Assembly: GCA_916610825.1 (NCBI GenBank)
Contig: OU744453.1
Span: 8,903,845 to 8,967,844, forward strand
DNA length: 64,000 bases
Reading direction: 5' to 3'
DNA from: Haliclystus octoradiatus
Lineage: Eukaryota > Cnidaria > Staurozoa > Stauromedusae > Haliclystidae
In this document: positions 25,090 to 60,704 of the stretch, one piece after another
Layout: every line of letters starts with the position of its first letter
Position numbering within the stretch: position 1 is the stretch's first letter
Notes under the pieces: model-generated
What the model was told of the DNA's origin: nothing
What the model saw: the letters and a program-made list of their open reading frames with translations, nothing else
Database searches by the model: none
Made by a program: the position numbers and the translations under genes

Positions 25090-25862
25090 TTGTACCCCTG
25101 CAGTATGGAACAAAATATAAACAATGAATCTATTGTTCATTTCAAACACTAGATTGAGTTTTCCTTTTGTTTCTAGATATTTAGAAAAGGCGCGTAAATT
25201 CTTCCCAACTGACGTGTTTCTTTCGATCAACATGGCGGCTATCGCTGGATTTATTTTGAAATATACCACTGCCCGTTTATTTGGTTGGTTTGGCTATAAC
25301 TTGCATATGATGCATCAAACTGGGTCAATTGGTCGCAAGTTTGCAGGTTTGATTTATGTGTTGCCTAGTTTGTTTTCAACAAGATGCCTTTTCGGTTTTG
25401 TTATTTGCCTTTTTAGGGACGCTGTTTTACTGCTATCCGATTCATTTTTGGCATGTATGTTCACAGAATCACAGTACTCTTTGCTTAGCCAAATCCGAAT
25501 CATTTTCAATTTTGTTTAAATTTATTAAATGCATACATTCAACGATTTGATTTTGACATGGTTTGAATTAACACTGATTTTCATATTTTACTAAAATGAA
25601 TGAGCTTGTTTCGAGATCGTCATTTGAAATTCCTTCCATGATTCAACTTCCCGTTTGCATGAGTTTGAATACTTAGATGTTGTTTATTCCTGTTTATTTG
25701 TATTCCAAACCGTATTTGCTGACGAAATAATTGCCAAAATGACCTTGAATGAATTGTTTTAAAAAGCTTAGGAATTTGAGTATGCTTATGTTTCCCTGTT
25801 ACGAACAGAAATTAACATAGACCTACGTAATGAAATCAAGCACAATCAACCATACCAGTGAC

Positions 25863-25870
25863 TATAAAAT
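25863..25870 (+). promoter_or_regulatory. Putative TATA box of copy A gene 1
   Basis: TATAAAAT about 180 bp before the first ATG (26045). It lies in a block also kept in copy B, where TATAAAT is at 53165. The shared flanks TTACGAACAG/TTATAAACAG and CGATTCGAA(C/T)TGGTTGAG support a conserved core promoter and leader. Confidence 0.5.
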
Positions 25871-26044
25871 ACCTCGAATTTCCGAAATAATCATTCAAGT
25901 TTGGTGTTCGATTCGAACTGGTTGAGCAAAGCAGTACACGCAATCAACCCTAGTCAACCATTAACTACAGTTAAACAAGAAGAAGCCTTGATAAAGCCAA
26001 GTTCATTTTACACAGGTGAGACTTTACTGATTTTGATTCATACT

Positions 26045-28596
26045 ATGCCATTTTATTGTGGTATATGTTCCACAGGTTTTTTAACCTTTTGGAAGTTATA
26101 CAGTCACATTTCATTTGCTCATTCTGATATTCAAAATTTACAAATAACTTGTGGCATTAACGGCTGCCTAAAAACAGTACATTCTGCTGAAGCGCTCCGT
26201 AGTCATGCCAGGCGAAACCATAGGATAGCAATTGTAAATAGTTTGAATGGGGAGAGCGATTTTGATTTAGATAGACCTACTGAATCAGTTGATGGAGAGA
26301 TTGGGCAAAATGAATCCATTGAGGCAGCCTCCATCAATTCTGAATCCCACTGTTCACCGGAATCAAACTCTGATCAAATAACTGATTGCAATTCTGTATC
26401 TCACTCTTCACTTGAGCAAATCAATAGCCTCCACTCCCTGCTATGTAAACAGATTTGTAACTTCTTTATACCACACGGGAACAAAATTCTTTACCTTACT
26501 CTGTTGTAGGATCTGTGTTTGATAAATTTTGTACTTTCCTGACATTTTACCATTCCAATATTTTTAAACTTTTCAGAAGCATTTTGCGCGAAAATAGTAT
26601 TGATCTACCTGATATAGATTTATTAAATGTTTTAAGCAATGGAAATTTTGTGACTCAGCTATTCGAGCCAATCTGTAGTGAGAAAAAGGTTAGCTCTTAC
26701 ATTGAGAAAAATTTAAAATTCGTAGCTCCAAAGGGAGTCAGTATTGGAATATTAGATAATGGTAAATCTGTGCAGTTACAATATATTTCTCTGCGCTCTT
26801 GAAACTATTTTTTTTAATGATGAAGTGTTTTCTGAATGCTATAAATACTCTAGCAGGAACCCTTCTAGCTCTGAGTATTCTGATATATTTGATGGGACAG
26901 AAATTCATCGCTGTTTTGCTGGTGAAAATTTCAAAGTCCCTCTAATTTTTTATACTGACGAATTCGAAGTCTGCAATCCCATAGGCAGTAGTAAGAAAAA
27001 GCACAAAATATGTGCTGTTTACTACCAAATAGGCTGTTTACCGCCTCATCTCAGGCATAAGAGATGTTTCACTTTTCTGAGTTCTCTTTGTTTAGATCGA
27101 CATAGAAAGCATTTTGGGTATGATGAAATGTTTAAACCTCTAATCCAGGAACTGAAAGATCTGATATCTATGCCTTTGTTCATTCAAGGTCAAATATGTT
27201 CTCCCAAGCTCTTTTTTATTTGCTCTGATAATCTAAGTGCGCATAGTCTTGGTGAATTCCAATGTTCATTCAGCTCAGGGTTGATATGCAGGTTTTGCAT
27301 GGCATCCTACAATGAATTGAAATTAAAGTTTTTTTCCAGTCAATTGCTAGCAGGCCACCTTGTACTGTTGAAAATAATTCACAAGCTCATACTGGAATGT
27401 CAAATGATGTCCAAGTCCAAGAGCCTGGTAGGCCTACAGTTCTTAAATGCTGCTTTGCTGGTGTTTCTCAAGTAGACCCTGATTTCAAGGTTTCTACACT
27501 TTTCCCCCCAGATATTCTTCATGACTTTCTTGAGGGTGTTATCCCAATTGTGCTCATGACAGTTTTGAGAATATTGATAGATAAAAAAGTAATTAAATTA
27601 ATTGAGTTTAATACACTTATAAACAATTTTTTTCACTTGAAGGAAATATCTTCAAAAGATGCGTTTACATGTGAAATCACTTACAGAAACTTGCTAGATA
27701 ATAGGTTTAGTGGTACTGCTTCTCAAAAGTGGAATTTACTCGTGTTTGCGCCATTCATTTTTTCCAACAGTGTAAATAGAAATGAACAATGCTGGATTTT
27801 GCTATTGAACTGTAGAGAGTTAGGAGATATACTGCTAGCTCATAAAATATCTAAAGATCAAATTTGTTACATGCGACATTTAATCAATGAGCATCATTCA
27901 TTACTGGCTGAGCTTTCTCAGCGTAATTTCACCCCTAAACTTCACTATATAATTCATTACCCAGATTATACTGAAATGTATGGTCCACCAAGATGTTTTT
28001 GGACTATGAGATTTGAAGGATTTCATCAGTACTTCAAAAATCTATCTAGACGGATTAGTAATTTCACTAATCTTCCTTTAACTTTGGCAAAAAGATGCCA
28101 AAGCCTCTTAGCAGGGTTGCACGGCTCGTACTCTTTGTTTACTGATCATGACTTCGTTCAAGTTGGTCCTGGTAAAACCATTATCCTTTGTGAACTTGGT
28201 ACTGAATTATGTGAACAAGTGAAGAATATAGGAAATTTGAGTTTGTATGATGATGGTATTGAGGTTTTCAGTGTAAAATGGATAAAGAGAAAGGGAATGC
28301 ATATCAAGGTTGGCTCAGTTGTGTACACGTTTGTTACAGAGGATGGGGCTCTTTCAATATTTATGGAGATATCTCACATCTTTTGTTTACATGGGTCTTG
28401 GGTTATCGCTGGAAATGACATTATTCCTAGGATTTTTGATCAGCATTCTTGGTCATATCTTTGTGATAAGAAAAATTCAGTTTTTGCTATGCATGTAGAT
28501 GACCTCCCTGAGTTTAAGGTAGTCTCAATGGTGCAAAGACATGGACAGTATCATGTTATTGTACCATACCAAATTCTGTCTCAAAAAGTAATTTAA
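26045..28596 (+). pseudogene. Copy A gene 1: C2H2-finger, putative RNase H-fold (CMC-like) transposase
   Basis: Two C2H2 fingers open the protein: CGICSTGF...HISFAH and CGINGCLKT...HARRNH. An acidic Ser-rich linker follows, then a large domain. Candidate catalytic residues are Asp in LIFYTDEFEVCNPIGSS, Asp in FICSDNLSAHSLGEF and Glu in FWTMRFEGFHQYFKN. Between the last two lie CRFC and DILHDFLEGVIP, a CxxC and DxxH arrangement like that of CACTA/EnSpm-type transposases. Frame breaks near 26500, 26795 and 27330-27400 kill this copy; the last 399 residues are open. The transposase role is inferred from motif layout and from the repeated copies. Confidence 0.6.
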
Positions 28597-28671
28597 AATT
28601 TGTGTAAAAGTGTTGTTTGTTTGTATTAGGATACTATTGTAAGTTTAATTTGTGTTCATTTTATTTTCAGA

Positions 28672-31265
28672 ATGGATTTACAAAGTAGCAGACTGGCTGT
28701 TTCAAAATTTGATGATGCTTCAGTGAGAAAGTTTGCTCGTACAACTGACTACTTCACCATGATTTCTGATGGTTTGTTTTGCTTTGATGTTATGAACAAT
28801 CACATTATGCTTTTACAACATCGTCTGATGTATGTTTTATCTCTTTTTCAGTGCTGCGGCGGTTTAAGTTGATCTGTGACGCGTCTGAAGTCGTTCTGTA
28901 TGCAACTGAAAGTCTTGGGTTAGATACAGTAGTTGAAGAAGAAGATTTTGATGACATTGTGAAAAATGGAAGCCTGATTTCATTGCGTGCTTGGTGGCCT
29001 GGGTGTGCTCCAGTTAAATCAGTAGAGGATAGCTAGTAGGTTTCTGACTATATTTGTGATTATCTCTTATCAAGACATATATGATCACTGACATGCATCT
29101 GTTTGTTTTATACAGTTCACAATTAACACCGACATCTAGCCATGGTATATCCACACATAGCCCCTTTGTGCGACCTGCATATGAACATTCAAGAACGGAT
29201 AGAACTTCTGTGTAAGTAGAAATTCTATTTATATATGTAAGATTCAATATTATTTTTTTTGAATAATCAATTTATATTTTTAGCCTTCCTCAAACTCTTG
29301 CCTGTCGCGACCATGGTGCTTCCAGTACTACTGATGGCTCTTCTTGTCAAGACTCACTACCAAGTTGCACTGCAATGTAAGTACCAGTAAGCTACCATCT
29401 CCTCATAAATGAGAATTCTCAGAATTTGCTTCTTTTGAATCTGATGTGCAAGTATTACGTGCCTAAATTCCACATTGAGATATGCTGCAGTCAAATATGC
29501 TATGCAACCCACCTCTTATTAGCGGCCACCTTCCTGAAGTGGACAATATTGTTTTGAATCAACCTTGTGTATAAGGGACACATGTATGTATTAGTCAAAT
29601 TTTGTAGAACTTCCAAGTGGTTGTTATATTCTGTTTTTTTTTTCTTAAAATCTTATTTAGACCAGTCATCTCTGATCACCTTCTACATTAATGTTGTTGT
29701 GTCTGTCTATTGTCACATCTAAATATTAGAGTTCATAGTTTTCTTCTGATGGATATTATTTGTTTGTTTATCAGATCATCACATACTCTTGCATCCGGCA
29801 GTGCTGGTGTTCCAATGTGTTCACCGCATGAGGAATCAGTACAGATAAGCTGTTCCAACAATCCCACAGAGTAAGCTTCAATTGAAAGTGTTTTATATAA
29901 TAAATGTTATAAATGTGTTTTGTTTGTTGTGATGACCGTTTGATTACATAATAGTACAATACTCAGAGGACTTCGACAAGCCTGGTAATGATGTAACTTC
30001 ACTTTAGGAAATTGATTTATATTCAAACTAATGCTGAATTTAGCTCTCATTATCACCCTTGATTTTACAAAAAGTCAAGTAAGGGTAACAAGCGACAATT
30101 AAGTTCCAATATTTGTTTGAGTTTGTGATGTGAGCAAATCAATAAGTGTAGGCCTACATTTCTGTTTATATCCATCTATATCGAGAATTTGTGTTTCCAT
30201 AGATCAACCATTACTCCTGAATCAAATCCTGGACCTTCTATTCGACAACCAACCGAACAGCGCAATTTGTATGTGTCAACCTGTTAATATGTAGGCCTAT
30301 GCATACAATATATTGTATGAGATTAATTATCTACTTCATTGATACTTACTTTCAGTTGCAACACTTATTTTGTAGGCTCCCCATATATATTCTTTGCCAG
30401 TATTCCCTGCTTGGGTTTGTACAGCTTTGTCAACAAAAGATAGTGAATGTAAATCCATGGCCAAAGTCACATCTAAGATCATTGACTGTTTGATGAAGGA
30501 CATGATTAGCAAATTGAACACAGCGTAAGTATTTCACATTCGCTAGACCCATTTTTTATATACGGAATTTATTGTGTGCATTGCAATATATATTTTTTTA
30601 TCATTTCAATCTTAGATATCCTGATTCAGAGGAGTACACCAAAGTGTGTAAGGCTCTTGTAGCAAAGTATCCATATTTGGCAGACAACTCGGCAACATGT
30701 AAAGGAATGTGAGTTGACTTATTGACAATTTTACAAAATATAACTGCTGGTATTAGCTGCTTTATAATTATATAACTATTTTTTTGCTTGACTTTTAGAA
30801 CTCTGTGGAGAACCAAGCTGGTAAGAAAATTTAAGTATAACAGAGAAATGACAGATAAAGCAACACAGGAAGTTATTGAAGCTCGTGCTAAATTTGCAAG
30901 TTCAGGGGGGCATAAACGTGCACAAAATCTAAATACTGCTACTCCTGCATCACCAAAAAAGAATGTATATTATATACTGGTTCTGCAATTTCATATGCAT
31001 GAATAGTGTTGTTAATGTGGAGCATGGTTTCATATCTACTGATAATTATTTTTAGGCTGCTTCCCCCATAATTATTGACCGTCCATCAGAAGCCCACTGC
31101 GATATCATATCATCGATGAAGGCAGAGTGCCGTAAGAGCATTCCTAATGAATATGTTCTATCAGAGCTTCTTTCTAAATGTCGCAGTGTCCGCTTTAAAA
31201 GACTAAAGTCCGAAGATTTGAATTCTGAACATCAATTGTGGCCTGCATTCAAGTTTCCAAATGTT
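28672..31265 (+). pseudogene. Copy A gene 2: UBL and Ser/Thr/Pro exon ladder, SAMD3-like, truncated
   Basis: Exons: 28672-28771, 28852-29032, 29116-29211, 29284-29376, 29775-29870, 30203-30268, 30376-30524, 30616-30708, 30799-30964 and 31056-31265, with the start of a next exon at 31446. Exon 2 encodes a ubiquitin-like or PB1-like fold (LRRFKLICDASEVVLY...DFDDIV). The following four exons are 96, 93, 96 and 66 nt, all in the same phase. Later exons encode YPYLADNS, TLWRTKLVRKFKYNRE and LLSKCRSVRFKRLK, as in animal proteins annotated 'SAMD3-like'. Defects: a missing GT donor after exon 2 with an in-frame TAG, and one base lost in exon 7. The last exons are absent. Confidence 0.6.
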
Positions 31266-31445
31266 GTGAGTAAACCTTTTGTATAGCATAGTATGTTTTA
31301 ATGTGATAATAACATCAAAACAGTAGGCTATTTTCCCTTATTCAGCAAATAATACTTGGCATGTAGAGAACGTTTAATCTCTCTTCCTGTTTTTTGTTGC
31401 TTATTGTTTGGATTAATTTCTGCGGTCTGCTTTATTTTGGTGTAG

Positions 31446-32600
31446 GTATACAAGAATGATTATTTTGGTGTAGGTAGATTTGAATGTTCATCAGATAGAT
31501 GTACAAACTGCTTATTTGAATGGAATCTTGGAAGAAGACATCTACATGCGCCAACCTGATGGATTCCAAGATGAGCAGCACCCTAAAGTGGTATGCAAAT
31601 TAAACCGAAGTCTCTATGGGCTAAAACAGTCAGCGCGATGCTGGAACAAGACAATTGATATCTACTTAAAAGAGCTAGGATATTCTCAAAATAAAGCAGA
31701 CCAATGCGTTTATGTGAAAAGAGAAAACAGCAAGATGGTTATTATTTGCCTATATGTAGAATGAAAATCGAAAGGAATCACGGAAAGCAAAACTTGAAGA
31801 TAAGCCAAAGTCAATATTTGCAAAAGATCCTAGAAAGGTTTGGCATGAATGATTGCAAAGCAATATCTACTCCATTGGAGACAGGAGCAAAATTTTGCAG
31901 AAAGACTGATGATGATGAAGGTACTGATATTAAAAATTACCAGGCCGCAATTGGCTGTTTAACATACGCAGCATTGGGTACAAGGCCAGATATCGCAATT
32001 GCTGTCAATATGCTGAGCCAATTCATGGCTAATCCAGCAAAGTTTCATTGGCAAGCGGTAAAGCGTGTCTTGCGATATGTAAAGGGCACATTAAACTATG
32101 GAATTTTATTCAGTGGGAGCAAAGAAGTAGTTGTAACTGGTTACAATGATTCTGACTGGGCATCAGATGTGGACAGCAGGAAATCCTATTCAGCATATAT
32201 TTTTGAATTGTGTGGAGGTCCAATAAGTTGGAGATGCAAAAAGCAATCAGTAGTAGCATTATCAAGTACGGAGGCAGAGTATGTTGCTTTAAGCATGGCA
32301 TCACAGGAATCTCTATGGCTAAGACGCTTATTTAATGGAATGGGATTTATTCAGAAGACTGCAACAAACATCAAAGAAGACAATCAAGGCGCAATATGTC
32401 TTTCAAAAAATCCCACAGAACATCCACGGACAAAACATGTGGATATTAGACATCATTTCATTCGACAAATGATCGAAAACAAAGAAGCAAGTTGAATATT
32501 GCCCAACAAATGAAATGCTTGCAGATGCACTGACGAAAGGATTACCAAGAGAAAAATTTGAGAAGATGAGAAATTCTATGCATATGGTATCCACATAAAT
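31446..32600 (+). pseudogene. Copia RT (partial) and RNase H
   Basis: Enters in the middle of RT at MNVHQIDVQTAYLNGILEED, then SLYGLKQSARCWNK. The frame then stops right after ICLYVE, so the second and third residues of the YVDD site and the following stretch are gone. It resumes with ISQSQYLQKILERFGM and the RNase H part (DWASDVDSRKSYSAYI, ALSSTEAEYVALS). A last frameshift lies near 32490 before the DALTKGLPREKF tail. Confidence 0.9.
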
Positions 32601-32770
32601 GTTATACATTGTTATACTACAACATATTGGTTATTGTCTTGACATTCAATACTAATTGAATTGCGAAGTCTATGTTATTTGATCTTAAAGGGTCGTTGTT
32701 TTCTTGACCTTTCTTGTTATTAATTATTAGTTGTTATACATAATGATAAAGGATCACTATTAAGTGGGAG

Positions 32771-33052
32771 TGTTGTGAATATAATAGTTATCTGTGATGA
32801 GACCGCTGATTAGTTATTGGCTGTAACGTATATGACTAATGTGCGCTGATTGGTGGACTGCTGATCCATTGTTCTTGTGTAATTACCTCGTGCGTCTTTT
32901 TGTGTTATGTTTATATTCTAGAGTTACAGAATATGAAGTTGTACGTTATAATCATTATAATAAAGTCTTCTGTTTGTCATACTTTGAGTGTTAATAATAT
33001 TAGTGCAAGTTAGTACTATTATTGGATGTTGTATTGATAACAACTATTAACA
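32771..33052 (+). repeat. Copia 3' LTR
   Basis: 282 bp, begins TGTTGTGAATATAATAGTTA and ends TATTAACA. Followed by TGATG, the same five bases that precede the 5' LTR. Confidence 0.95.
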
Positions 33053-33057
33053 TGATG

Positions 33058-37805: not shown

Positions 37806-37810
37806 TATTA

Positions 37811-44921: not shown

Positions 44922-45130
44922 TTGAGTTTACATCAGAATTGTGGATTTAATTTTTCTGGGAGTGTTCATGTTGAGCGTGCAATCCGACGTATGAAGGAAT
45001 ATCATATGTTTGATACATATGTTGCTTTAAATCTTGCTGGGACTGCTCAACATCTAAAGTCAGAATCTTGTTTAATAACTAATTTTATGTCTTACGTCTT
45101 TAATTCGTATATTGACACCACTGGTAAGTC
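44922..45130 (+). pseudogene. DDE_Tnp_4 transposase C-terminal fragment
   Basis: VHVERAIRRMKEYHMFD carries the catalytic Glu of the ISL2EU/Harbinger family, and LAGTAQHLKSESCLITNF is the conserved final block. It may be the missing end of the fragment at 38880, separated by the Mutator-like and LINE insertions. Confidence 0.75.
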
Positions 45131-45685: not shown

Positions 45686-45689
45686 GTAA

Positions 45690-46044
45690 TATTCTGAATT
45701 TTAAATTGTACAAACTATGCCGTTATGGCGGAAGAATGTTTACCCATGCTGCCCCGCCGTGTGGAACAATCTCGCAGTAGAAGCAAAATATGCAATAACA
45801 ATTGAAACTTTTAAACAACTAATAAAAACGAGTCTTTTTAAAATTGCTTTTAAATGTTAAAGTATTTACAGTATATTTCTTTCTTAACCAACTTTTAACT
45901 TATTTACACCACTGTTTGAAGTAATAAAAAATAAAATACAATATATATATATTTATAATATTATAACATGTAAAGCGCTATTGAGCAACTATTGGGAATA
46001 GCGCTCTATAAATAAATAAAGTTTATTATTATTATTATTATAAA
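45690..46044 (+). mobile_element. 3' end of a second LINE with stem-loop and (TTA)n tail
   Basis: The C-terminal coding end AVWNNLAVEAKYAITIETFK is followed by a 3' UTR ending in a perfect 9-bp stem-loop (AGCGCTATT at 45974 and AATAGCGCT at 45997). A (TTA)n tail comes next. A 3' hairpin plus short tandem tail is usual for CR1/L2-like LINEs. Confidence 0.8.
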
Positions 46045-46071
46045 CTTCAGAAACCATGCAAACAAAGGGAC

Positions 46072-47240
46072 TTGCGGGTTGTAATTTTGCAAGAATCAAT
46101 TATCAAAGTTTCAGCTGTTTTAGCAAGCACAATCGACGAATTGCTGATAAGCAAAACTTCTGGGAAGGCAATAGACCCCAAAAACATTGCAAGTAAATTG
46201 TTTAAAAAGCTGTTATTTGGCAATGACTTATCGAAACTTTTTACTGATTCTAAACCGGAGCATAAAATCCTTGCCTCTAGCACATCCCACAAGTGTTCAC
46301 GTTTTACTCCATATCCTTTACCAATATCTACTTCTCCTCATCCCTTTTAATCCCACAGGGGGAGGGGAGCAGCATCAGCTTCCTTTCCTTCCCATCGTCA
46401 CCCGTACCAGAACCAACCTCGGCGGGGTCAATATCGACGAAGTCCCAATAAGCGGTTCAACAGTCATCAGTCCAAAAATCAACGATCCTAAATTCATATT
46501 TTACAATATTTATAAACCTCCAGTTAAAACCGTTCTTAATTGAAAAAGTAAAACAATTTACAGGGGGGACAGCTTAGCAAAAATTATTCAAAATGAAAAA
46601 CCTTGACATCTGATTTAACTATTCTTCAATGGGTAAAAGGTGACATAATTGATTTTCCAAATTCAATGCCACTCAATAGTAAAATTTCACCTAACTTTAT
46701 TCCTAGAGATCATGTTGGCCTTGTTTGAGTCTAATGAAATTGCATTGCTAGAGTCAAAAGGTATTATTTCCAAGTCATATGATGAATTGGACAGTATGCC
46801 TCACCTATTTTCCCCGTACTTAAGAACGATAACAAAATTCAATTAATTTTAAGATTAAAATCCTTCAATCAACATTTAGAATACATCCACTTCAAGATGG
46901 ATTCCATTCACACAGTCTTGCGTTTGATTTCTTTGAATTGTTGGATGCTTCAGTGGATTTAAAGGATGCATATTACATTGTAAAATTCGCAGTGATCGCA
47001 GAAAATATTTTAACTTTTCCTTCCAAGGACAATTATACCATTACATGGTTTACCAAACGGGTTTGTCATTTTGTCTAAGTAGATTTACGAAACTTCTGAA
47101 GCCCCTATTTTCATACTTAAGACAAAAAGGATTTATGATATGTTCCTATATTGATGATTTGTTTCTAATGGCATTTTCTTATGAGGGTTGTATTGATGCA
47201 GTTTTAGAAACCACTGCTGCTCCAAAGTTTGCACTAGGTT
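46072..47240 (+). pseudogene. Second, decayed DIRS fragment (gag end and RT)
   Basis: Broken frames show gag (FKKLLFGNDLSKLFTDSK), RT N-terminal VKGDIIDFPNSMPLN, ALLESKGIIS, and RFTKLLKPLFSYLRQKGF followed by CSYIDDLFLMA, the RT active-site motif. It is a different lineage from the DIRS at 9443 (YIDD rather than YLDD). It abuts the LINE tail at 46044. Confidence 0.8.
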
Positions 47241-47484
47241 AAACAAAAAATAACTGTTCCTCCGTCCCAATAGCTTGCAATGCAACAGTATACACACTGT
47301 TCTGAAAATCAACTTTACAATGCAAGAATTATAACATTGATGATGTAAATGCTCATGATAAATATAAGGGGGCAAATGCAAACAAAGTTTAACAATAACA
47401 GCAGTTAAATATTTAGAGGTGCGGGTATAAACATCCTGAAATAGACATATGTGTGAACGATCTAACCCCTTTTCTATTTTTATT

Positions 47485-47665
47485 AATTTATAAAAAAAGC
47501 ATCTGTGTAATATGCCTGGATTGGCAAGTGGCATGTGCTGTTGTGCCATGTGGCCACGTGCGTATGTGCCTTCAATGCAGACAGACGATCTTACAACAGC
47601 AAGAGCTATTGACCTGCCCATTGTGTAGGACACCGCGCAGAATGTTCATGTCACTATTCCTGTGA
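47485..47665 (+). CDS. Orphan RING-HC finger exon
   Basis: SICVICLDWQVACAVVPCGH, then MCLQCRQTI and TCPLCRTPRRMF form a complete C3HC4 RING: CxxC, C, H, CxxC, CxxC in order. RINGs of this type sit at the C-terminus of E3 ubiquitin ligases. The stop codon follows 26 bp after the last CxxC. There is no upstream coding exon in reach; an AAAAAAAG before the Ser codon is a poor acceptor. It could be the last exon of a host gene or captured cargo. Confidence 0.6.
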
Positions 47666-48151
47666 GATATTTTTTGTGTTTAAAGTTATTAATTTGATAT
47701 ATTTCTAGTAAATATGTTTGACTATTGAGATTCAAATAATTTGATTCCTCATAATTTCATCATACAAGAGACGGAGTAACTTCGTTAATTATTCTAACTA
47801 CATACAGGTATAATAGAATTGTAAATATAATTGAAGATATCTAATCAGTCCTTATATCGCAAGAAAATAGAAATAAATGTATAAATCTTAGAACCTTATA
47901 TCAATCATAGTTTTGGAAATATACCTTTTGAAAATTTTGTCATGTCTTAATTCAAACCGTGTTTACTTGTGAAACTCAGTGCTCAGTAAAATGGGGATTC
48001 CCATATGCATGCACATTTCGAGAATACTAGAATTACTGCAGGTAAAACTTTCAAATTGCAAATATTTCAGCACTTTGAAGGATTTTTACAGGTTTTTCGT
48101 AATTAAAAAATGTTGATCACTTTAAATTAAAGCATGTTCTAATCAAGCATT
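47666..48151. other. AT-rich stretch without recognisable features
   Basis: Nothing supported was seen between the RING exon and the Harbinger-like fragment. Confidence 0.5.
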
Positions 48152-48436
48152 TTGAGAAAAAAGCGTATGATACTAAAGATGCGGTTATTTTCAATGTTAT
48201 TATTATTATCAAAGAAGCCTGAGACGATACGTACTCTACGTTCATGCAGGCGTTTACCTCGTGCTCGTGGCTGGTGGGCAAATGTTGTAGCCACGTATTC
48301 CGATGAGCGATTCAAAAAAACTTTCAGAGTTAGTAGAAGTACCTTTGATTTGATATTGAAAAAAATTGAAAGTCGTTTAACGAAGGAAGTAGTAGTAGTA
48401 TACACACAGCAAAATTTGAAATCAGGCATATCCTAA
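48152..48436 (+). pseudogene. PIF/Harbinger-like nuclease, N-terminal fragment
   Basis: RGWWANVVATYSDERFKKTF and RVSRSTFDLILKKIESRL match the region before the nuclease core of Harbinger proteins (WW...FRxSxxTFxxLL). The rest is missing here; a later part is at 51040. Confidence 0.65.
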
Positions 48437-49294
48437 ATTTCTTGATTTTAGTTCCATATTTCTTAAAATATAGCATTTAACACTAACGGTTTTACGCTCA
48501 GTTTAGCATATCATCGATTCACTTCAAATAAGAAAAAATATTATTGTTTATGAAAAATAGCTGAAATCACCCAAATTTATCATTTATTTTCTAATTTTTC
48601 AAGCCTACAAACTACAATGGAAACTTTTATTTCGCTTGACTGACTGAACTATTATAGCATACAAAACTGATATATATATACTCCGATATTCCGATACAGT
48701 ATTCAGAAAGGAAAATGTTTGGTTTCGAGACCAATTTTACATCTAACCTAACCATGTATATTTTAATAGCCTCAGCACAATATCAATGCTAAGATTAATC
48801 ACATCATACTTCAATTATGTTGATAAATAGTATTTATTGATTCATAAAATTGAAAAAATCAAAACTTTGAGCACTGGAGTTGGTAAGATTGGAAAGCAAT
48901 TACACAATAATTATTATAAACTATATATAGTTATTATTTGCATACAACCAACAGCGTAGGTAAAGTTCAAAAGTAATTATTCGGTTATTTAAAGCTATTC
49001 CCGAACAATATAGATCTAGTTCGTTGCTCCTGGTACCTTTGCATTTATGTTACAATGTAACCACGTTGATATCACAACGCGTTTATTACTACTATTATTA
49101 CTATTTAACTACTTCAACCCGGGTAATATCTCGACCCGCTCAATATCCTGATTTTTTACGCCCTGTGACACTGATATTAACAGGGTTACACTGTACTGTA
49201 ATAAATCTATATACATTATGATTAGATGGTAGTGCTATAAAGAAAATCTAATTATTACAATCTGAACTTCACAAATAAATAAGATATATAATGT
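48437..49294. other. AT-rich stretch without recognisable genes
   Basis: No supported gene. A short (TTAC/TTA)n patch lies around 49085-49105. Confidence 0.5.
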
Positions 49295-50227
49295 CTATGA
49301 ACGACACAATGGATTGCAATCCAACGAGTGAAGTTCAATGATATCGTTCATATAATATTTAGGAATAATATAGTTGTCTTTATTTACGTCCTGTTTAATA
49401 TGGAAGACATTGTAATCAACCAATGTATCTGCAGCACAAATGTAAGTTTGGTCCTCCCTTTCATTTTCAACACAGTATCCATGGCGACTAGAATCGAATG
49501 AAATTGTACGTAATTTGCTGCATTCAAAATAAATAAAACCATGTACTACATATATTTTGGTTATGCAGCCAAACACTGGAAGGAGTGGTGAAGAGCTAGT
49601 ACAATTTATAACAACAATAGCCCCTTTTGCATACTTAGTACCGTACCGCACAACCCAGCTTACTTTGTACATATTTTGCAATGCAACACCAGGAAGTAAG
49701 CAAGAGTGATTAAATTTTGATTGCAATAGTGCACAGTCATCATTATTCAGCAATTTCAATACACCATAATTGAGTTCATTTGAAAATAATGGATTAGAAC
49801 TAAAAGACTCAGTGCTTGATTTTTTTGGATCACCAAAGCTGGCACATTCATTAAGCTGGTGCCTTTTTGCTAAAGATTTGTGTAAGCTTTTGAAGTTTTG
49901 CTTCCTTGCAAGTTGCTTAAAATAACAATGCGCTGATTCAAAGCTGAAGCAAGATGACCGGATCATTGGTCCAAATAATTCAATTGCTGAAGGAATATGT
50001 AATAAATAGTGATGCTTAGGTAAGATATTTGAATTCGGAAATCTGAGGCAAAAGTTCCGTAAGTGATCACGTATAAGAATTCTGAGCATATCAACAGTTT
50101 CCTTTTTTATCACTGGTGCAAAAATAACACTGTTCAAATGAACCAACTCCAAAAGAAATATATAATATGGGTCATGTTCATCAATGAAAGGTGATAGCAA
50201 GATTGGAAGAATTCTTAAAAATAACAA
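49295..50227 (-). CDS. Copy C: C-terminal part of a CMC-like transposase, open frame
   Basis: 310 codons on the minus strand, similar in order and motifs to the second half of gene 1 in copies A and B: LPKHHYLLHIPSAIELFGP, FSFESAHCYFKQLARK (candidate catalytic Glu and a His-YFK motif) and SLAKRHQ. A C-terminal module of small beta-rich blocks follows (VSWVVRYGTKYAKGAIVV...YVVHGFIYFECSKL). It is much diverged from A and B, which suggests an older or separate subfamily, yet it has no stop or frameshift. The N-terminal fingers and the first two acidic motifs are absent upstream. It may be a truncated copy or part of a spliced host gene. Confidence 0.6.
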   Translation of the reverse strand: MLFLRILPILLSPFIDEHDPYYIFLLELVHLNSVIFAPVIKKETVDMLRILIRDHLRNFCLRFPNSNILPKHHYLLHIPSAIELFGPMIRSSCFSFESAHCYFKQLARKQNFKSLHKSLAKRHQLNECASFGDPKKSSTESFSSNPLFSNELNYGVLKLLNNDDCALLQSKFNHSCLLPGVALQNMYKVSWVVRYGTKYAKGAIVVINCTSSSPLLPVFGCITKIYVVHGFIYFECSKLRTISFDSSRHGYCVENEREDQTYICAADTLVDYNVFHIKQDVNKDNYIIPKYYMNDIIELHSLDCNPLCRS

Positions 50228-50469
50228 GGAGTTGGCCTTGTATCATGAATACAAAAATATGTAATCCGTTGATTTTTCCTCTATATTAATCATGTTGTCG
50301 CATACTCTATATTAATCACGTTGTTCTTATTTCAAATTAAATATAATATGATGTAATATGATATTTGCCTGTTATATTTATGTTTGTTATACGGCTTTCG
50401 GTGACAGGATTCTTTCTGTTCTTAATAATCAAGGTATTCTCTGAAGAAGGTAAATCACCCTTAAATAAA

Positions 50470-51480: not shown

Positions 51481-51519
51481 AATCACCAAACACTATTAGT
51501 ATGCCTAATAATTTAAATT

Positions 51520-52310
51520 TATGTTGTCAGCCGGAGAGTATGTCACATCTTATGAATGCTGCTATGGTAAAAAGCCAGATTCAAAAGAAATGAAAGTGTT
51601 TGGTTGTACAGCCTATGCATTAAAACCTTATAGAAAAAAGTGTGATACAGAATCTGTTGAATTGAAATTTATTGGATATGATAATGGTACACATGCATGT
51701 CGTTTATAGAATTCAGAATAAAGAACGTTAGTTGTGCTTAGAAATTAGTCTTCAATAAATATGATTTTGGTGGCATTGGTAAATAAATCAGTAGATGAAA
51801 ATTATGATGTTCCTATATATCTGATGTACAATCTATTACTTTGAACAATGATATTGTACTATTCGTACCCACTCAACCTTCTTTTGATATTGAATATGAA
51901 ATTGTAACTTTACATAGACGTACGGTGAGAGCAATGAATGAATTTAGTAAATATGGTGAATGGGTTACTGGCGATGATATTGAGTCACTTAATATAACTG
52001 ATCATTGTTTTTATTTGCTTTATTTTGCTAGTGGCATCGCTGAACCTGAATCCATAAGTGAAGCTATGGCATCTGATCATTCTGTTAAATAGAAGGAAGT
52101 GATAGACAACGAATTTGGATCTATAAAAGAATTGAAAAAAATATGGAATTTGGTTAATTTCCTTGATAACAGAACTACTATTGGATGTAGATGGGTGTAG
52201 AAAGTGAATAAAAAAATGGTGTTGTTGAAAAGTTTAAAGCAAGATTAGTTGCAATAGGCTACTCACAGACATTTGGTATTGATTACAATATTATTACAAA
52301 TTTACAATAA
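51520..52310 (+). pseudogene. Decayed Copia pol fragment
   Basis: Integrase end YECCYGKKPDSKEMKVFGCT with SVELKFIGYDNGTH, then after stops the RT start EPESISEAMASDHS, ELKKIWNLVNFLDNRT and KKMVLLKSLKQD-type debris. The order is as in Copia; it is unrelated in sequence to the Copia at 22450. Confidence 0.75.
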
Positions 52311-52393
52311 AATTTTGAATGGCGGTCAGACGTGTATGAGCTTTGAAAGGACGAATTTCAGAAGTGCATCGGTTTGAATAATATCTATTTTTC

Positions 52394-52612
52394 ATGATGT
52401 CTGACAAAATTTGTTGCTTGGCATGTACTTTGCCAATCGAATTAGAACATGGTATTGATTATGATGGTTGTAATTTTGCAGTTCATTTTAGCTGTTTACT
52501 TTTAGGGAGATATTTAGATGCTAGCTGTAATTCAGAAACTAGTGATTGGTTTAAGCAACTATGTAAAAGCAAATATTGGTCATTCACATGCAAAATCTGC
52601 GTTGTAAATTGA
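52394..52612 (+). CDS. Small PHD-like zinc-finger ORF
   Basis: 72 codons with CCLACTLPIE, DGCNFAVHFSCL and WSFTCKICVVN: CxxC, C, HxxC, W, CxxC, a PHD-finger layout seen in several TE-encoded proteins. It ends at a TGA and has no adjoining coding sequence. It lies about 550 bp before the copy B promoter block and may belong to that unit or to the neighbouring TE debris. Confidence 0.5.
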   Translation: MMSDKICCLACTLPIELEHGIDYDGCNFAVHFSCLLLGRYLDASCNSETSDWFKQLCKSKYWSFTCKICVVN

Positions 52613-53164
52613 ACAATTTCAACTAGCTATACATTAGCTGGCAAGTATACTGTTGTCGTAGTTTTTGAGTTTTTAACTCGTTATCTTTTTGTTTGGTGTG
52701 GTTGTTTGTTAGGGACGCTTGCTACCAAGACTTTCGCTCTCCTAATACTTTCAGACTTGTAGGTAAGTTTACTGAGCTCAACCGATTCGAATCATGGTCA
52801 TGCAGTAAATCAATTTTATTTATAACTTACATTTAACATTATAACTGTTATAACAAGAAAATTCTGATTTGGAAGTTTGAAAATGAATGAGTTTGTTGAA
52901 GTTTTAATTTTGATCGTTTGAAATTCCTGTCTGATGAAGCATCGTTTTCGTCACTAGCACTCCCCTCTCTCGTACGTGAATGTAATGAATTTTCCGGCTT
53001 TAATAATGTTTTCGTTTGAAAAGTGTTATTAATAGTTGTTTGACGTAAACGTACATCATTTGAATCAGTTCTGGAATTTAAAATACCGATATTTTCCTGT
53101 TATAAACAGCAATTAATTTTAGACCGACGTAGTAATGACAGGAACAATCAAGCTCCCAAAGAAG

Positions 53165-53171
53165 TATAAAT
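53165..53171 (+). promoter_or_regulatory. Putative TATA box of copy B gene 1
   Basis: TATAAAT 210 bp before ATG 53375, in the block shared with copy A (TATAAAAT at 25863). Confidence 0.5.
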
Positions 53172-53374
53172 TGCCGTGTATTTAAAAATTCGTCAGTCTT
53201 CTTCGATGTGCGATTCGAATTGGTTGAGTAAGCAAGATAGAGTCTGTGAAGAGAGAAAATCAAGTGAAGTGCTGCTTGAAAGTCACTACAGTTTGCAAAT
53301 TCACTGGTGTATTAATAATTAATAAACAGGTAGGTTCTTAATGAAAGTAGCATAGCTTCCTACCTATTACTATA

Positions 53375-55973
53375 ATGTTGTTTAAATGCTCTTTATGTCC
53401 CAGTGATACTAATTTTTCCACTTTCTGGCGATTATATAGTCATCTGTCATTTGCTCATTCTGACATCCAGAATATGACTATAAATTGTGGGATTAACGGG
53501 TGTATAGAAACAAAACATTCTATTGAAGCATTTCGCAGCCATGCTAGGCGAAAACATAGAATAGAAATAGTGAATAGTCTTAACGGAAACAGTGATTTTG
53601 ATATAGGTACTGAATCTTGCACCAATTCAATCCTTGATGAGCTAGACCAAAATTGCATTGATCCTAATTCTGAAATTCATTCTCCATCTGAAAATCAATT
53701 GCAGCAGATAGCAGGAGCTGAAAGCAATTCTGAATTTCATTCTTCAGTAGAACAAATCAATAGCATACATTCTCTTCTCTCTAAGCATGTTTGTAATTTT
53801 TTTATTTCAACAAGAGAACAACATTCACTACTTTATTCTGTAGTAGGATCTATTTTAGATAGATTCTCTACTTTTCTGGGCTTTTATCATACTAATCTTT
53901 TCAAACTTTTTACAAGTGTTTTACGTGAAAATAATATTATTTTACCAGATATAGATTTATTAAATTTTTTAAGTGATGAAGAGTTTGTACAAAAATTGTT
54001 TGCGCCAATCTCTAGTGAGAAAAAAGTTAGCTCTTATATTGAGAATAACCTGAAATTTGTGGCCCCTAAGAAAGTTTGTCTTGGGCAATTACCTAATGGT
54101 AAAACTGTGTATTTTCAATATGTATCTCTTCGTTCAACCCTTGAAACTATTTTTAGTAATGATGAAGTGTTTGCTGAATGTTATAAATACTCATCAAGGG
54201 ATCCATCTGATTCAGCTTATACTGACATATATGACGGGACAGGAATATATCGTTGTTTTTCGAAAGAAAATTTCAAAGTTCCTCTTATATTTTACACTGA
54301 TGAATTCGAAGTGTGTAACCCTATTGGTAGTAGTAAGAAGAAGCATAAAATATGTGCCGTTTATTACCAATTAGGTTGTCTAACTCCTCAACTTAGGCAT
54401 AAGAGGTGTTTCACCTTTTTAAGTTCTCACTGTTTGGATCGCTATCGAAAGCATTTTGGTTATGATCTGATGTTCAAGTCAGTTATTGAGGAACTGAAAA
54501 CTATGATTTCTACTCCCCTTGTTATGCAAGGTCAAATATTTTCTCCCAAGCTGTTTTTCATTTGCTCAGATAATTTGAGTGCTCATAGTCTTGGTGGTTT
54601 TCAATGTTCTTTAGCTCAGGGATGATATGTAGATTTTGAACTGCTTTATACAGTGAATTGAAGTCAAATTTTTTTGCTAGTGATTTTCCTATTCAACCAT
54701 CTCCTAGTACAGTTGTAGAAGGAATTCACAAAATGATGCTGATGATCAGGACCCTGGTTCAGAAAATATACAGGGTGATACTGATGATCAAGAGCCAGAT
54801 GCAGCTAGTACTGTTGTTTTAAAATGTTGCTTTGCTACTATTTCTCAAGTAGATCTCAATTTCCAGGTTTCTTTCCTTTTTTCACCTGATATTCTACATG
54901 ACTTTCTTGAAGGTGTCATCCCGATTGTTTTAATGACAGTTTTTAGGATATTAATAGAAAGAAAAATTGTCAAATTAAGTGAAATTAATAAATTAATTGC
55001 AGATTTTTTTACAATTAAAGGAAATTTCGTCGCGTGATGCATTCACATGTGAAATATCATATAGAAATTTGTTAGACAATAGATTTAGTGGTACTGCCTC
55101 TCAAAAGTGGAATTTGCTTCTGTTCTGTCCGTATATTTTTTCTGACTGTGTAGGCCTAAATAGGAATGAGAAATGTTGGTTACTATTATTAAAATGTAGG
55201 GAATTGGGCGACATACTGCTTGCACATAAAATAAATAAAAATCAAATGTGTTATCTGCGGCATTTGATTCATGAACATCATTATTTGCTGGCCAAGCTTT
55301 CAGCGCGTAATTTTACACCAAAGCTGCATTATCTTATACATTATCCAGATTACATAGAAATGTATGGCCCCCCAGATGTTTTTGGACGATGCGTTTTGAA
55401 GGTTTCCACCAATACTTTAAAAATTTGTCTAGGAGGGTGAGAAACTTTAGAAATCTTCCTCTAACTTTGTCAAAAAGGTGCCAGTCTCTCTCAGCAGGGT
55501 TATTTGACTCGTACTCATTGTTTTCCGACAGCGATTTTGCCGAGGTAGGTCCAGGCAAAACCAATCCCATTTGTGAGCTTGGAATTGATTTATGTGAACA
55601 AGTAAAGAATATAGGGAATTTGGGTTTTTATGATGATAGTCTGGAGGTCTTTAGTACTAATTGGATTAAAAAAAAGGGGATGCATATTAAGATGGGTTCA
55701 GTGGTATGCACATTTGTTGCTGAAAATGAGGTATCTTCAATGTTTTTAGAGATAACTCACATTATATCTTTACAAGATTCTTGGGTTATTGCTGGAAATG
55801 ACGTCATTCCTACAGTATTTGATACTCATTCCTGGTCATACCTTTGTGATAAGAAAAGCTCCGTATTTGCGATGTATGTGGATGACCTTCCAGAATTTAA
55901 AGTAGCGTCTATGGTTTCAAGACATGGCCAGCACCATGTAATTTTACCATACCAAATTATGTCATCTTCATAA
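53375..55973 (+). pseudogene. Copy B gene 1: C2H2-finger, putative RNase H-fold (CMC-like) transposase
   Basis: The first 416 codons are open: two C2H2 fingers (CSLCPSDTNF...HLSFAH and CGINGCIET...HARRKH), an acidic linker, FYTDEFEVCNPIGSS and FICSDNLSAHSLGGF. The frame breaks at about 54622, right at the CRF(C) motif, whose last Cys is lost. It breaks again near 54735 and 55015. A one-base loss in a C run near 55370 sits just before the candidate catalytic region (MRFEGFHQYFKNLSRR). The rest (55389-55973) is open. Copies A and B are broken at different places, so each shows the other's intact sequence. Confidence 0.62.
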
Positions 55974-56044
55974 CCCTTATTTATTCAATTTTTAATTCTA
56001 ATTAGATGGTTCCATTTCAATGTATATTTGTTTTTATTTTCAGT

Positions 56045-59000
56045 ATGGACCATCAAAGTAGTAGAATTGCAGTTTCTAAATATGACGATTCTTCTGTGAG
56101 AAAATATGCTCGGACCGATGATTACTCCACTATGATATCTGATGGTTTGTTGATGATTTTTATTGTGGGTGATACATTGCAGTTTAAGTAGGAACTTATT
56201 CCTCCAGTAATATTTTAAGCCTAAACTTTTATCTTCTTATTAGTGTTGAGAAGGTTCAAATTGACTTGCGATCCATCTAATGTAATCCTCTATTCCACTG
56301 ACAATGATGGAATGGATACAGAAATTGAGGATGAAGACTTTGATGATATTGTCAAAAATAGCAATCTAACTGCATTGCGTGCTTGGTGGCCGGGATGTAC
56401 CCCAATAAATCAACTTGGAGGAAATAGGTAGGCCTGCTAGTTTGCCCATTGGCTGTGCTTGTGAAATTTTTTCATACGCTCAATCCATGAATTGTCAATC
56501 CATGTAAATGTTTTTTAGCTCACAACCTACACCTGAAAATCTACTAACTCCATCATCATTAAGCCATGCTGTTGATACACATAGTAGCTTTGTCCTACCT
56601 ACAGCTACAGATGAAGAATCATGGCCTCACAACTTTTCTTTGTAAGTAATAAATTTGTTAAATCAAAAAATGTATCACATTTTAATTGTTTGTTGAAATG
56701 CTGTGTTACCGCATTAAGACTTTTACTGTTATTATCATTATCACATCCGTTTAATATCATTACTTTTTCAAAACCGCTTTCTGTCAAACTCGAGTACTCC
56801 ACCAAGTTTAATATTTTAACGCACTTTTTATTTATTATCACGGTTTTGGTAGCACCAGGAAGCACCAGGACAGTGATGTTAATGAGGAACATTGTACTAC
56901 CGATTTTAATTTTTGATTTTGTTTCTTAGATCCACTCTCCATCCTCCGCCCAACAACACTAAAACTATTTCTGTACCAATTCAACAAGAAATAATGTCAA
57001 GCAACACTTCATCGTAAGTAACATCTTTCTTATATTGACAGTTGTTATTTTTATGCGTAGTTTGGCCGATTACAGGTTATGTTATGCTCTTTTTAATTGC
57101 TTAATGTCTGTATGTGATTGTCATTGACAATGTTGACCATATTTGTATTGCTATTAAATAATGATATTTCTTAAGAAGTCACCACCCTATCATCACCAGT
57201 ACTCCACAATCTCCCATTAGCTATTACACATGTTTCTCTGCACTGTGTGTGTTTTTTAATGATCATGCTGTTTATTCTATTTATCAGATCATTTCAAAAT
57301 CTGGAATCCAGCAGTGCTACTGCGACGCTTATTAGTTCTTCTGTACAACCTCCTCAAGATCTGCAGGAAGGGTCAAGTAGCTGTTCAATGTAAGTTAAAA
57401 TTCAAGATACACAATTTCATACTGCAGAACTACACGTATGCAATACTACAAGTAACTTGGAATAGTCCTTTGATTTGGAACAAAGCAGCTTCTTATTGCA
57501 TTTTGCCTGTGGCCTGTGAAAGTACATGACACATAAATTCAAGGCCGGAAATAAATTGGTATCATATTATTGTGTTTGAATTGCATTTGAAAAATAAGAG
57601 TTTAGTTGATATTGCTTGTTGTATTCTGATCACCTTGCTTGATTTTATTTATCAGATCACTTCTGACTCCTTTATCAAATGCTACTCCTATGCTAATCGG
57701 TTCTTCTGGTCCACCTGTTCAAGAATTTGAATCTGGGCCAAGCAACTCTTCAGTGTAAGCCGCAGCTTCAATTCAACAGTTTAAGGAGAAGGTTAACTAT
57801 ACATTTTATTGTTTTGTGATTTTGCATGTTTGCTTTTCCAGCTCACCTTCAACATCCTCATCAAATCATGTACCATTGCTCAGACAACCAATGCAACGCC
57901 ATACGCAAGTGCCATAATTTGATTTCAAACAATCTGATAGTGTTATTCAATTTGTCATGGCCTTTTCTTATTTTCTTTTTCAATCAATTTGTAGGCTTCC
58001 TCTAATATACACATTGCCAACGTTTACTACTTCTATTTATAGGAGCTTAAAAGAAAAAAAAAGCCTCTGTAAAAAGTTGGAAAGTGTTTCTAACGGGATT
58101 ACATCATGTTTGATGGAAGACATGCTAAAGAAGCTGAACACAAAGTAAGTGCATGTTTTTTGTTTAGGTGTAGGGCGGCCTATGCTTTGATGAAAGGATA
58201 TTTGTTTTCATATCCAATTGATTTTTTCACTACTTCAGATGAGTATTTTTTTTCACTTCTTCAGATGAGTATAATACAGTCTGCAAGGCTTTAATAACCG
58301 AATATCCTTTCCTGGCTGATAACTCTGTAACTTGCAAAGGAATGTAAGTTGATAACTTCAGTAACTTCTTTTTTCCGTTATTGATTGTTATTGAAATGAG
58401 AATTATTGTCAGGTGTGATGGGTAATTTTTCTTTTCCTGCTAGTACCCTATGGATATCAAAACTATCAAGGAAATTCAAATACCATAGAAAAATAACACC
58501 TGATGTCACCCAAGATATTATTGATGCACGTGAGAAATACACTAGTTCTGGTGGGAAAAAACGTGCTCAAAGTATGAATGCTGTCACCTCGTCATCATCA
58601 AAGAAAAAAGTAATTTATTATTTAATTTGCTTCAGATGCATGTCTGTTGTTTGCCTGTGTGTCAAACAGGATGATAATGTCATTCTGCATTTCTTCTAGA
58701 TTTCCACATCAACAATAAGTAAGCCTACAAATCAACCAGGCGACTGCTTGGAGACTTTAGCGCTCATGAAAGCCGAATGTCGCAAGAGCATTCCAGATGA
58801 ATATGTAATGTTTGAATTGCTTTTCAAGTGCCGAAGTGAGCGATTAAAGAGACTTGAATCAGCTGAGTTGGTTGCAGAACATCAGTTGTGGCCTGCACTC
58901 AAGTTTCCAAATGTTGTGAGTAGACTTTTCTTGTTATATCATGTTTATGTGTTGAATGCAGTTTTGTCAACATTCTTAGATTAGCAGCCTTTACATTATA

Positions 59001-60704
59001 AATATTGCTCAAATTCCTCCCTCTTATTTAAGGTCACCTGTCTAGAGTGGTCAAATTGTCAATATTCCCTAAAATATTCCCTAAATATTCAATATTCCCT
59101 AAAAATGTAGTCTTAGCGTGATTTTTGTTATTCAACAGACAATTTTTATCATTATTTATTGATGTAGGTATACAAAGAAGCTCTAGATCTAATGAAGTCG
59201 ACAGTTGCATGGGACAACCTGGAGAAAGCAATTGAGAGCTTGCTCCAGATTTTAGGAGAGAAATTGGGATCTAAATTAATAGCTTCAGAAATTTATCAAG
59301 AACTCGCTGCTACTTATTCTGCAGGTGAGTCCATAACTTACGTAATGTTGCTATTCATGACTAGATCATCATATTGTAGATTTCAGATATCCCTGGCATT
59401 CAAAATAACGTAAATACCTACGAGTTGTCGAACGTCAGTCCTTGAACTGTTCATACAATGTTTCAGAGCATCAAACAAGTATCGATGAATAGTTCATGAA
59501 CTTAATTTGTCAATGGTGTAGGCCCAACATTATTTAGTTCCTACATTGCCTAGCAAATGTATCAAGGGATCATTCACAATTAATGTAAACTAATTTTGTG
59601 TCAATTTTTGACCCACCTCTCCTTTCTGTCAACTTTGTTAATGGGAGTTTTGCACATTTAATACAGGCTGTCAACTTTCGCACAACCCCATCCCCCCACT
59701 CTATCTCCAATATTATTACATACTGTTCTGTCTAAAACTGCCATGAAGCACTATTTTATCTGCTATTGAAATCTACACCTGGAAGAGCTGCATCATTGCC
59801 CTGCTATAAAAAAATATTTTGACATCAGCACTTTGAGACAGTATGAGCTCAACTATAAAAAACATTTCTGTGGGTATATTTCATAGTCGCCTTTTCATTG
59901 ATTTATATTACTTTTTCAGATCCTCAAAAGCTTGGTTACACTTCATTGCCACTTTGCTTTAAAGAAAAAAGTGACAACCTCTTCTGTAAAAGAGAAGTGT
60001 TTGACAGCAATGTGGTAAGTTTGAAACGATTCTCACAGCTTTGTTTACATGTAAGCACATGTCTTGATCGGAAATACTATTACGTTTGCAAAGGAGCAAG
60101 GCAATAACACCATGAGTATGGCGTCACATAAGATCCTAAATATGCTTCGATACATATGACAATTAAGCTGTATCATCTGCAATGCTTCATATTAATGGAG
60201 CAATGCTCTTTTCAATTGCTGCATGTAGCTGTGATCTAATGATTAATTCTTTATGTTAGACAATTAGACGTACTTATCAAATTTCGTTGGACACAGGAAC
60301 TTTATCGTCACACGATTTGACAACATAATTATAATCCTAATAGCTTGACATCAAGTCAAGACGAAAGAGGATTTATAGTAAAGTATTGTACTCGTATACA
60401 ACATTGTGTGATGCAATTTATATTTATGTTTCAGAACGAAGTATCAAAGCAGCTCGTTGTGTGTTTCAATGAAGAAAAGCATACATACGACATAATTTTT
60501 AACAGGCAACTGCTGTATGAAGATTTGCCAAAGTTATCAACTGCTGTTTCTCTGCAATTGTGCAACCATTATGTTCTTAACATTGAATATGGTTGCCCTA
60601 CAAGCTTCGCAGTTATCGAAAGATACCTAGGCTGCGCAGTTAAAAGTAAGCGTGCTCTGACGCTATGCACAAAGCATGACATCCACCCATACTTTATCCA
60701 TTAA
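56045..60704 (+). CDS. Copy B gene 2: 14-exon UBL, Ser/Thr/Pro-ladder, SAMD3-like protein
   Basis: Exons: 56045-56144, 56244-56427, 56519-56641, 56930-57013, 57288-57389, 57656-57754, 57842-57904, 57995-58144, 58265-58343, 58444-58609, 58700-58915, 59168-59324, 59920-60014, 60435-60704. All acceptors are AG; donors are GT except exon 7, which has GCAAGT. Exon 2 encodes a ubiquitin/PB1-like domain (LRRFKLTCDPSNVILY...DFDDIV). Exons 3-7 are all multiples of three in one phase and code for Ser/Thr/Pro-rich linkers. Exon 8 is a predicted coil (LMEDMLKKLNTK). Exons 10-14 give LWISKLSRKFKYHRK, LFKCRSERLKRLESAEL and HYVLNIEYGCPTSFAVIERY. Exon 9 is damaged by a local duplication around ACTTCAGATGAGTAT. 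Function unknown; a protein partner of the transposase is one guess. Confidence 0.6.

Follow-up and report, generated by a model that had tools for sequence, protein, structure and literature searches.

A putative animal CACTA transposon with a conserved second gene in the staurozoan Haliclystus octoradiatus

We studied a 64,000-nt stretch of the Haliclystus octoradiatus genome (GenBank assembly GCA_916610825.1, contig OU744453.1, positions 8,903,845 to 8,967,844, forward strand), in the following called the window, which holds two homologous copies, A and B, of a two-gene unit (Table 1). This is a real mobile unit, and it is likely an animal CACTA element with a conserved second protein. Gene 1 is supported as a CACTA-type DDE transposase, with catalysis predicted from its motifs. 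Our preferred reading, which we consider probable, is an animal CACTA (EnSpm/CMC) DNA transposon whose gene 2 would code for a second transposition protein belonging to the element itself, made by splicing around gene 1 and playing the part of TNPA in maize Spm.

Results

Two divergent copies of one unit

Self-comparison of the window identifies A and B as homologous units, both on the plus strand. The matches come in separate pieces that span 25788/53089 to 31279/58929 (A/B). The top DNA match (26077-29021 vs. 53413-56412) shows 72.8% identity over 3037 columns; further matches cover gene 2 exons as well as a 144-column upstream block at 70%. The two copies share the promoter block, the order of the genes and the splice borders of gene 2, and the C2H2-like start of gene 1 and its acidic motifs are present. 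The initial annotation, which described shared promoter block, gene order, exon borders and motifs, is right in all these points, but it called the unit as a whole intron-rich; only gene 2 is, and gene 1 is a single exon. Its two copies are indeed two homologous units, but copy A is incomplete, i.e., most of exon 12 and the whole of exons 13-14 of copy B are without counterpart.

The limits of the copies were set by their surroundings. To the left of copy A, the reading frame of a Copia retrotransposon is open to ~25087; on its right, an exon remnant is followed by the junction with the Copia reverse transcriptase (RT) at ~31474. For copy B, the left limit is the end of a decayed Copia RT piece and the right limit was derived from an AATAAA at 60897, the first past gene 2, and a cluster of GTACCC hexamers. 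Both A and B are old copies that are now defective.

The similarity of A and B exceeds chance, as conservation at protein sites contrasts with near-saturated synonymous sites. For gene 1, the ratio of nonsynonymous to synonymous divergence (dN/dS) is 0.098 (bootstrap 0.07-0.14, 654 codons) with a synonymous divergence (dS) of 1.6; for gene 2, it is 0.134 (bootstrap 0.07-0.22, 328 codons of nine exon pairs) with a dS of 2.1, where dS values this high are rough estimates only. On the DNA level, gene 1 is 73% and seven gene 2 exons are 47-77% alike. Six introns show 29-49%, to be compared with 20 random pairs (mean 32%, maximum 45%). Both genes diverged together over a long time under purifying selection on the protein, and A and B represent lineages that parted long ago and each retained the pair of genes. 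Since the present copies are broken, this selection acted on their ancestors.

Table 1. Features of the two-gene unit and its surroundings (window positions; nt, nucleotides; LTR, long terminal repeat)
Feature	Position	Strand	Details
Copy A of the unit	25010..31459	+	left end ~25010-25140; right end lost
Copy A, promoter and putative leader exon	25840..26015	+	TATAAA 25863; CAG 26013-26015; donor-like GTGAG from 26016
Copy A, gene 1 (CACTA/CMC-type transposase candidate)	26045..28596	+	one exon; three frame breaks
Copy A, gene 1 motifs		+	YTDEF 26951; CSDNLSAHS 27221; CRFC 27287; HYIIH 27943; MRFEGFH 28006
Copy A, gene 2 first acceptor	28660-28670	+	TTTATTTTCAG
Copy A, gene 2	28672..31459	+	11 exons found, last cut off; one phase break 30268/30376
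Copy B of the unit	52300..61250	+	both ends approximate
Copy B, promoter and putative leader exon	53140..53329	+	TATAAA 53165; CAG 53327-53329; donor-like GTAGG from 53330
Copy B, gene 1	53375..55973	+	one exon; ≥4 frame breaks, 1 stop
Copy B, gene 1 motifs		+	YTDEF 54293; CSDNLSAHS 54563; HYLIH 55327; MRFEGFH 55389
Copy B, gene 2 first acceptor	56033-56043	+	TTTATTTTCAG
Copy B, gene 2	56045..60704	+	14 exons found; phase broken at the joint of exons 8 and 9
GTACCC/GGGTAC cluster	61102..61231		5 of the window's 17 hexamers, beside copy B right end
Copia LTR retrotransposon holding copy A	22450..33052	+	LTRs 22450-22731 and 32771-33052
Direct duplication where copy A meets the Copia RT	31432..31487	+	28 bp, 82% alike
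Third, distant gene 1 relative	49295..50242	-	C-terminal fragment with HYLLH and SFESAH

Gene 1 as a probable CACTA-type transposase

The frame breaks of gene 1 sit at different places in A and B, and successive open stretches change frame. When read across them, the motifs of copy A follow in the order YTDEF, CSDNLSAHS, CRFC, PDILHDFL, HYIIH and MRFEGFH. The three acidic motifs (first, second and last) had been correctly named in the initial annotation. It also placed CxxC and DxxH motifs between the second and third of these; both are present, but the pair forming the metal site is CxxC plus HxxxH (HYIIH in A, HYLIH in B). The order D, D, C(2)C, H(3-4)H, E is given as the signature of EnSpm and its relatives (PMC12730594). 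In copy A, this CACTA/CMC signature (D-D-CxxC-HxxxH-E) is complete and in order, across one frame break; in copy B, the C(2)C is spoilt by a stop after CRF.

The respective Pfam matches are below curated cut-offs. Transposase_21 (tnp2) matches one copy A piece only (E 0.0024, 17.5 bits vs. a cut-off of 28.6), and DUF4218, which we take to be linked to plant CACTA transposases, matches the next piece (E 0.15). Together with the full motif order of copy A, these two matches back the earlier assignment of gene 1 to the CMC/CACTA type. The described C2H2-like start is found as well, with a Pfam C2H2 finger in copy A at E 0.0042 (below cut-off).

A third, distant relative of gene 1 lies between the two units. 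It matches the C-terminal part of gene 1 with a tblastn E-value of 9e-19 at 25% identity and DUF4218 at E 0.021, again below cut-off.

Structure of gene 2

Exon borders of gene 2 were set by eye using the A-B alignment. In copy B, all 13 introns end with AG, the donors are GT (12/13) or GC (1/13), and the phase is kept at 12/13 joints. For the 10 introns of copy A, we find AG acceptors throughout (10/10), GT donors in 9/10 cases (the donor after 29032 is unclear) and a kept phase at 9/10 joints, before the gene breaks off ~14 nt into the exon starting at 31446. The shortest gene 2 intron has 72 nt.

The spliced reading amounts to 618 amino acids (split codons left out). A Pfam search of it at E<=5 reports just two DUFs (E 0.18 and 0.24), which are below cut-off; neither a SAM domain nor the ubiquitin-like N-terminus that the initial annotation had proposed is found at this threshold. 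The SAMD3-like label, which the initial annotation took from animal proteins with such helical domains, is a putative one. No NCBIfam match was obtained for the four pieces searched, two of which are gene 2 exons.

Two further observations concern copy B. Its neighbouring exons 57288-57389 and 57656-57754 are 70% alike over 80 nt including a donor, which suggests an exon duplication inside gene 2. Just past the gene 2 stop, an inverted piece (60727-60787, minus strand) is 80% like part of the last gene 2 exon.

A putative shared promoter and a proposed gene 1-skipping splice

The promoter/leader region of copy A belongs to a block that is 70% alike in copy B. From TATAAA to the CAG/GT border (26016, 53330) we count 153 bp in A and 165 bp in B, and this border precedes the ATG of gene 1 by 29 and 45 nt, respectively. 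At the other side of gene 1, the 11-mer TTTATTTTCAG places an acceptor 1 nt before the gene 2 ATG in both copies and is found only these two times on the plus strand of the window, within an intergenic spacer that is overall 49% alike between A and B. The genes are only 75 nt (A) and 71 nt (B) apart, with neither AATAAA nor ATTAAA between them in both copies. Given the shortest gene 2 intron, the donor that pairs with the first gene 2 acceptor probably lies within gene 1 or upstream of it. Joining the leader donor to this acceptor would define introns of ~2655 and 2714 nt that enclose all of gene 1.

From this layout we infer the promoter with its leader, a leader-to-gene 2 splice that skips gene 1, two mRNAs and a TNPA-like function of gene 2. 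That is, one promoter (TATA box, leader of ~120-135 nt) would serve both genes. A transcript that keeps gene 1 would give an mRNA in which the gene 2 exons follow gene 1. In the alternative splice form, the leader donor would be joined to the gene 2 acceptor and gene 1 removed as an intron of 2.65-2.71 kb. Gene 1 would provide the DDE transposase, and the gene 2 protein would most likely bind the subterminal region, bring the ends together and help the gene 1 protein; it may also regulate the promoter.

The role of gene 2 in the light of known systems

In Spm, the transposase open reading frames (ORFs) lie inside an intron of the intron-rich second gene. Its tnpA and tnpD are derived from one transcription unit via alternative splicing, and transposition requires both; TNPA acts on the promoter, while the DNA binding of TNPA is stabilised by TNPD, which interacts with it (PMC1636069). 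The same source reports for SmTRC1 from Schistosoma that most expressed sequence tags skip the transposase ORF and that the shorter transcripts encode a protein proposed for TNPA's work. This second protein was without relatives in the other genomes searched there, and an experimental test of its role was called for (PMC1636069, published 2006); hits to TRC elements are given for sea urchin, Ciona, zebrafish and Aedes. For plant CACTA elements, the second ORF is described to aid excision and transposition in specific families (PMC4158355).

SmTRC1/TRC resembles our unit as we read it, with an animal CACTA-type transposase (Transposase_21, below cut-off in our unit) and with transcripts, predicted in our case, that leave out the transposase ORF and code for a shorter, TNPA-like second protein. 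In contrast to SmTRC1, gene 2 is longer (618 amino acids read), is spread over 14 exons and shows conservation between two lineages, and terminal repeats were not found. Like maize En/Spm, the unit would make two proteins from one transcription unit by alternative splicing, with the transposase gene within an intron of the intron-rich second gene; unlike there, gene 2 matches no Pfam model, and CACTA termini and subterminal TNPA sites are not established.

The initial annotation saw in the unit a new cargo or accessory system. This is not the best reading, as CACTA elements with two genes are already known (TNPD/TNPA of Spm, PrC/PrA of SmTRC1). Because CACTA elements carry two genes, gene 2 more likely encodes the element's own second transposition protein, and by analogy we lean towards a TNPA-like role in transposition, with somewhat less confidence than for the preferred reading at large. 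Alternatively, gene 2 could be host-derived cargo that was captured and retained for some use outside transposition, e.g., to counter silencing. A precedent is given by the TET/JBP genes of fungal transposons, which occur in several lineages, EnSpm among them (PMC12730594), and gene 2 matches no known transposon protein family in Pfam (or, for two exons, in NCBIfam). The fungal EnSpm/Plavaka elements are like the unit in having a CMCT transposase signature plus an extra gene, but the extra gene described there is a dioxygenase (PMC12730594), a domain that Pfam does not find in gene 2. Against captured cargo, gene 2 takes the place of TNPA in Spm and of PrA in SmTRC1 by its position, its many introns, the acceptor ahead of its ATG and the apparently shared promoter, and both divergent lineages kept it under selection. 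We therefore regard captured cargo as unlikely.

Nesting within a Copia element and mobility of the unit

Copy A sits within a Copia LTR retrotransposon, which the initial annotation does not mention. The 282-bp LTRs differ by 5 mismatches (98.2% identical) and the target duplication TGATG is present on both flanks. According to Pfam, gag, Pol_BBD, rve and SH3_retrovirus are left of copy A and RVT_2 is right of it, where the RT resumes at model position 77 of 244; no family was assigned by Pfam to the piece 31695-32492. Directly after the 5' LTR we observe GGTTATGGGCCCAG, which presumably is a primer-binding site. Copy A must have inserted after the Copia, and the Copia, judged by its LTRs, is far younger than the A-B split. 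The missing part of the RT, the missing 3' end of copy A and the 28 bp duplicated at this border point to a deletion that later removed sequence across the right junction. The nesting in a young Copia and the similar dS and dN/dS of both genes support joint mobility, in line with the earlier claim that the two genes moved or duplicated as one unit.

The nesting could also mean that the retrotransposon captured the two-gene unit and carried it along as part of a chimeric Copia. A Tnp2 gene inside putative LTRs is reported from beet (PMC2426827), and a decayed Copia RT piece, assigned by eye, adjoins copy B, too (~52030-52290). But RNA passage is expected to remove introns, and copy A retains those of gene 2 on the Copia's strand; because of this, copy A is seen to have arrived recently and as DNA. 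Moreover, no LTR pair surrounds copy B within the window, and the partial loss of the RT at the junction is as expected after a deletion, which leaves such a chimera highly improbable. Even less credible is that two host genes lying side by side were simply duplicated, in tandem or as a segment. The same orientation, the same gene order and the distance of 27 kb between A and B would speak for it, but copy A lies in a single Copia (target duplication, 98.2% identical LTRs) while A-B synonymous sites are near saturation, self-comparison shows no match of A with B beyond the limits of the unit, and both copies are decayed.

As a side observation, both copies adjoin Copia RT sequence, since the decayed Copia-like piece at 52030-52290 lies directly left of copy B; this may be chance or target preference.

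Evidence weighing against the preferred reading

Several observations weigh against the CACTA transposon with its own second transposition protein. The sample comprises two full units only, from one window. All Pfam matches of gene 1 are below the curated cut-offs and stem from copy A and the third fragment only, while the four gene 1 pieces of copy B are without tnp2, DUF4218 and C2H2 matches (Pfam, E<=1). When joined, copy A gene 1 scored worse, i.e., only Transposase_21 was listed, at E 0.019, and DUF4218 was not at E 1. Profile searches against solved structures in PDB gave 0 matches for gene 1. As gene 2 matches no family, its DNA-binding role is proposed by position only. With regard to transcription, TATAAA is common (71 on the plus strand of the window) and copy B has another one at 53101. 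The pattern CAGGTRRG occurs just 4 times on the plus strand of the 64 kb (just ahead of gene 1 in each copy, at the gene 2 donor 59322 and at 15291), but the splice-site patterns were chosen after viewing the sites, and their identity is in part due to shared descent.

The third gene 1 relative shows no detectable gene 2 beside it: on its strand, 44000-49294 yields 41 weak matches to the gene 2 exons of both copies, compared to 23-46 in 20 shuffles; a separate search gave a single match of E 4.5 at 45485-45610. The initial statement that the transposon always carries this partner thus finds no support from this fragment, which is distant, incomplete and located among other elements, such that the absence of gene 2 neither proves nor disproves the partnership.

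Finally, the suggested check for terminal repeats turned up none: a repeat search and end alignments of both units plus flanks found neither terminal inverted repeats nor a target duplication of the unit, where copy A has lost its right end and the ends of copy B are not delimited. End regions were aligned locally and compared with 500 shuffles of two-base blocks each (five comparisons, no correction). The score of copy A left vs. the reverse complement of copy B right is reached by 0.178 of the shuffles, and that of copy A left vs. copy B left by 0.39, or by 0.022 when extended to the TTAGGGAC stretch. The candidate pairing of copy B left with the reverse complement of copy B right (0.026 of shuffles), which lies beyond the GTACCC cluster, was not accepted. 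In direct orientation, copy A left vs. copy B right is reached by 0.004 of the shuffles, perhaps due to common GTACCC repeats. For GTACCC/GGGTAC in a span the size of the 61102-61231 cluster, 0/300 mononucleotide shuffles reach 5 and none exceeds 3, for a hexamer that was picked after it was seen. Two more sites (25030 and 25092) are near the left end of copy A. CACTA elements have subterminal repeats, and the cluster may represent those of copy B or, alternatively, a separate small element.

Window setting

The window has a G+C content of 31-39% per 2 kb. We take it as animal DNA: a hyaluronidase gene is found at its left end, and eukaryotic transposable elements are dense. Among these, a THAP + DDE_Tnp_4 transposase gene (plus strand) faces a gene with SAP domain and YqaJ nuclease (minus strand) at 12156-16405. 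The two may form one two-gene element of the ISL2EU type, a family to which we assume such gene pairs to be linked. Fragments of a Mutator-like transposase (PF20700) in two frames are located at 40717-41756. No relatives of gene 1 or gene 2 were confirmed in viral and prokaryotic collections or, for one gene 2 exon, in phages, which says nothing about animals.

Discussion

Many genes of animal genomes are annotated as SAMD3-like without having a SAM domain. We tentatively put forward, as a conjecture we would not yet bet on, that these genes might largely be second transposition proteins of animal CACTA elements. The Spm plan, i.e., one promoter and a transposase gene inside an intron of a TNPA-type gene, would then be common to plants and animals, and such proteins would be a source for the recruitment of host genes. 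Within the open-licence literature, searched by title/abstract listing, we found no paper that links SAMD3-like genes to CACTA; among the results were a zebrafish transcriptome paper and a parrotfish paper naming both SAMD3 and transposable elements.

Over a synonymous distance near saturation and under purifying selection, gene 2 was retained next to what we read as an animal CACTA transposase, which makes it a conserved candidate for a TNPA-like role and renders the question testable. If the SAMD3-like label holds, this would explain a family of repetitive genes without assigned function in animal annotations.

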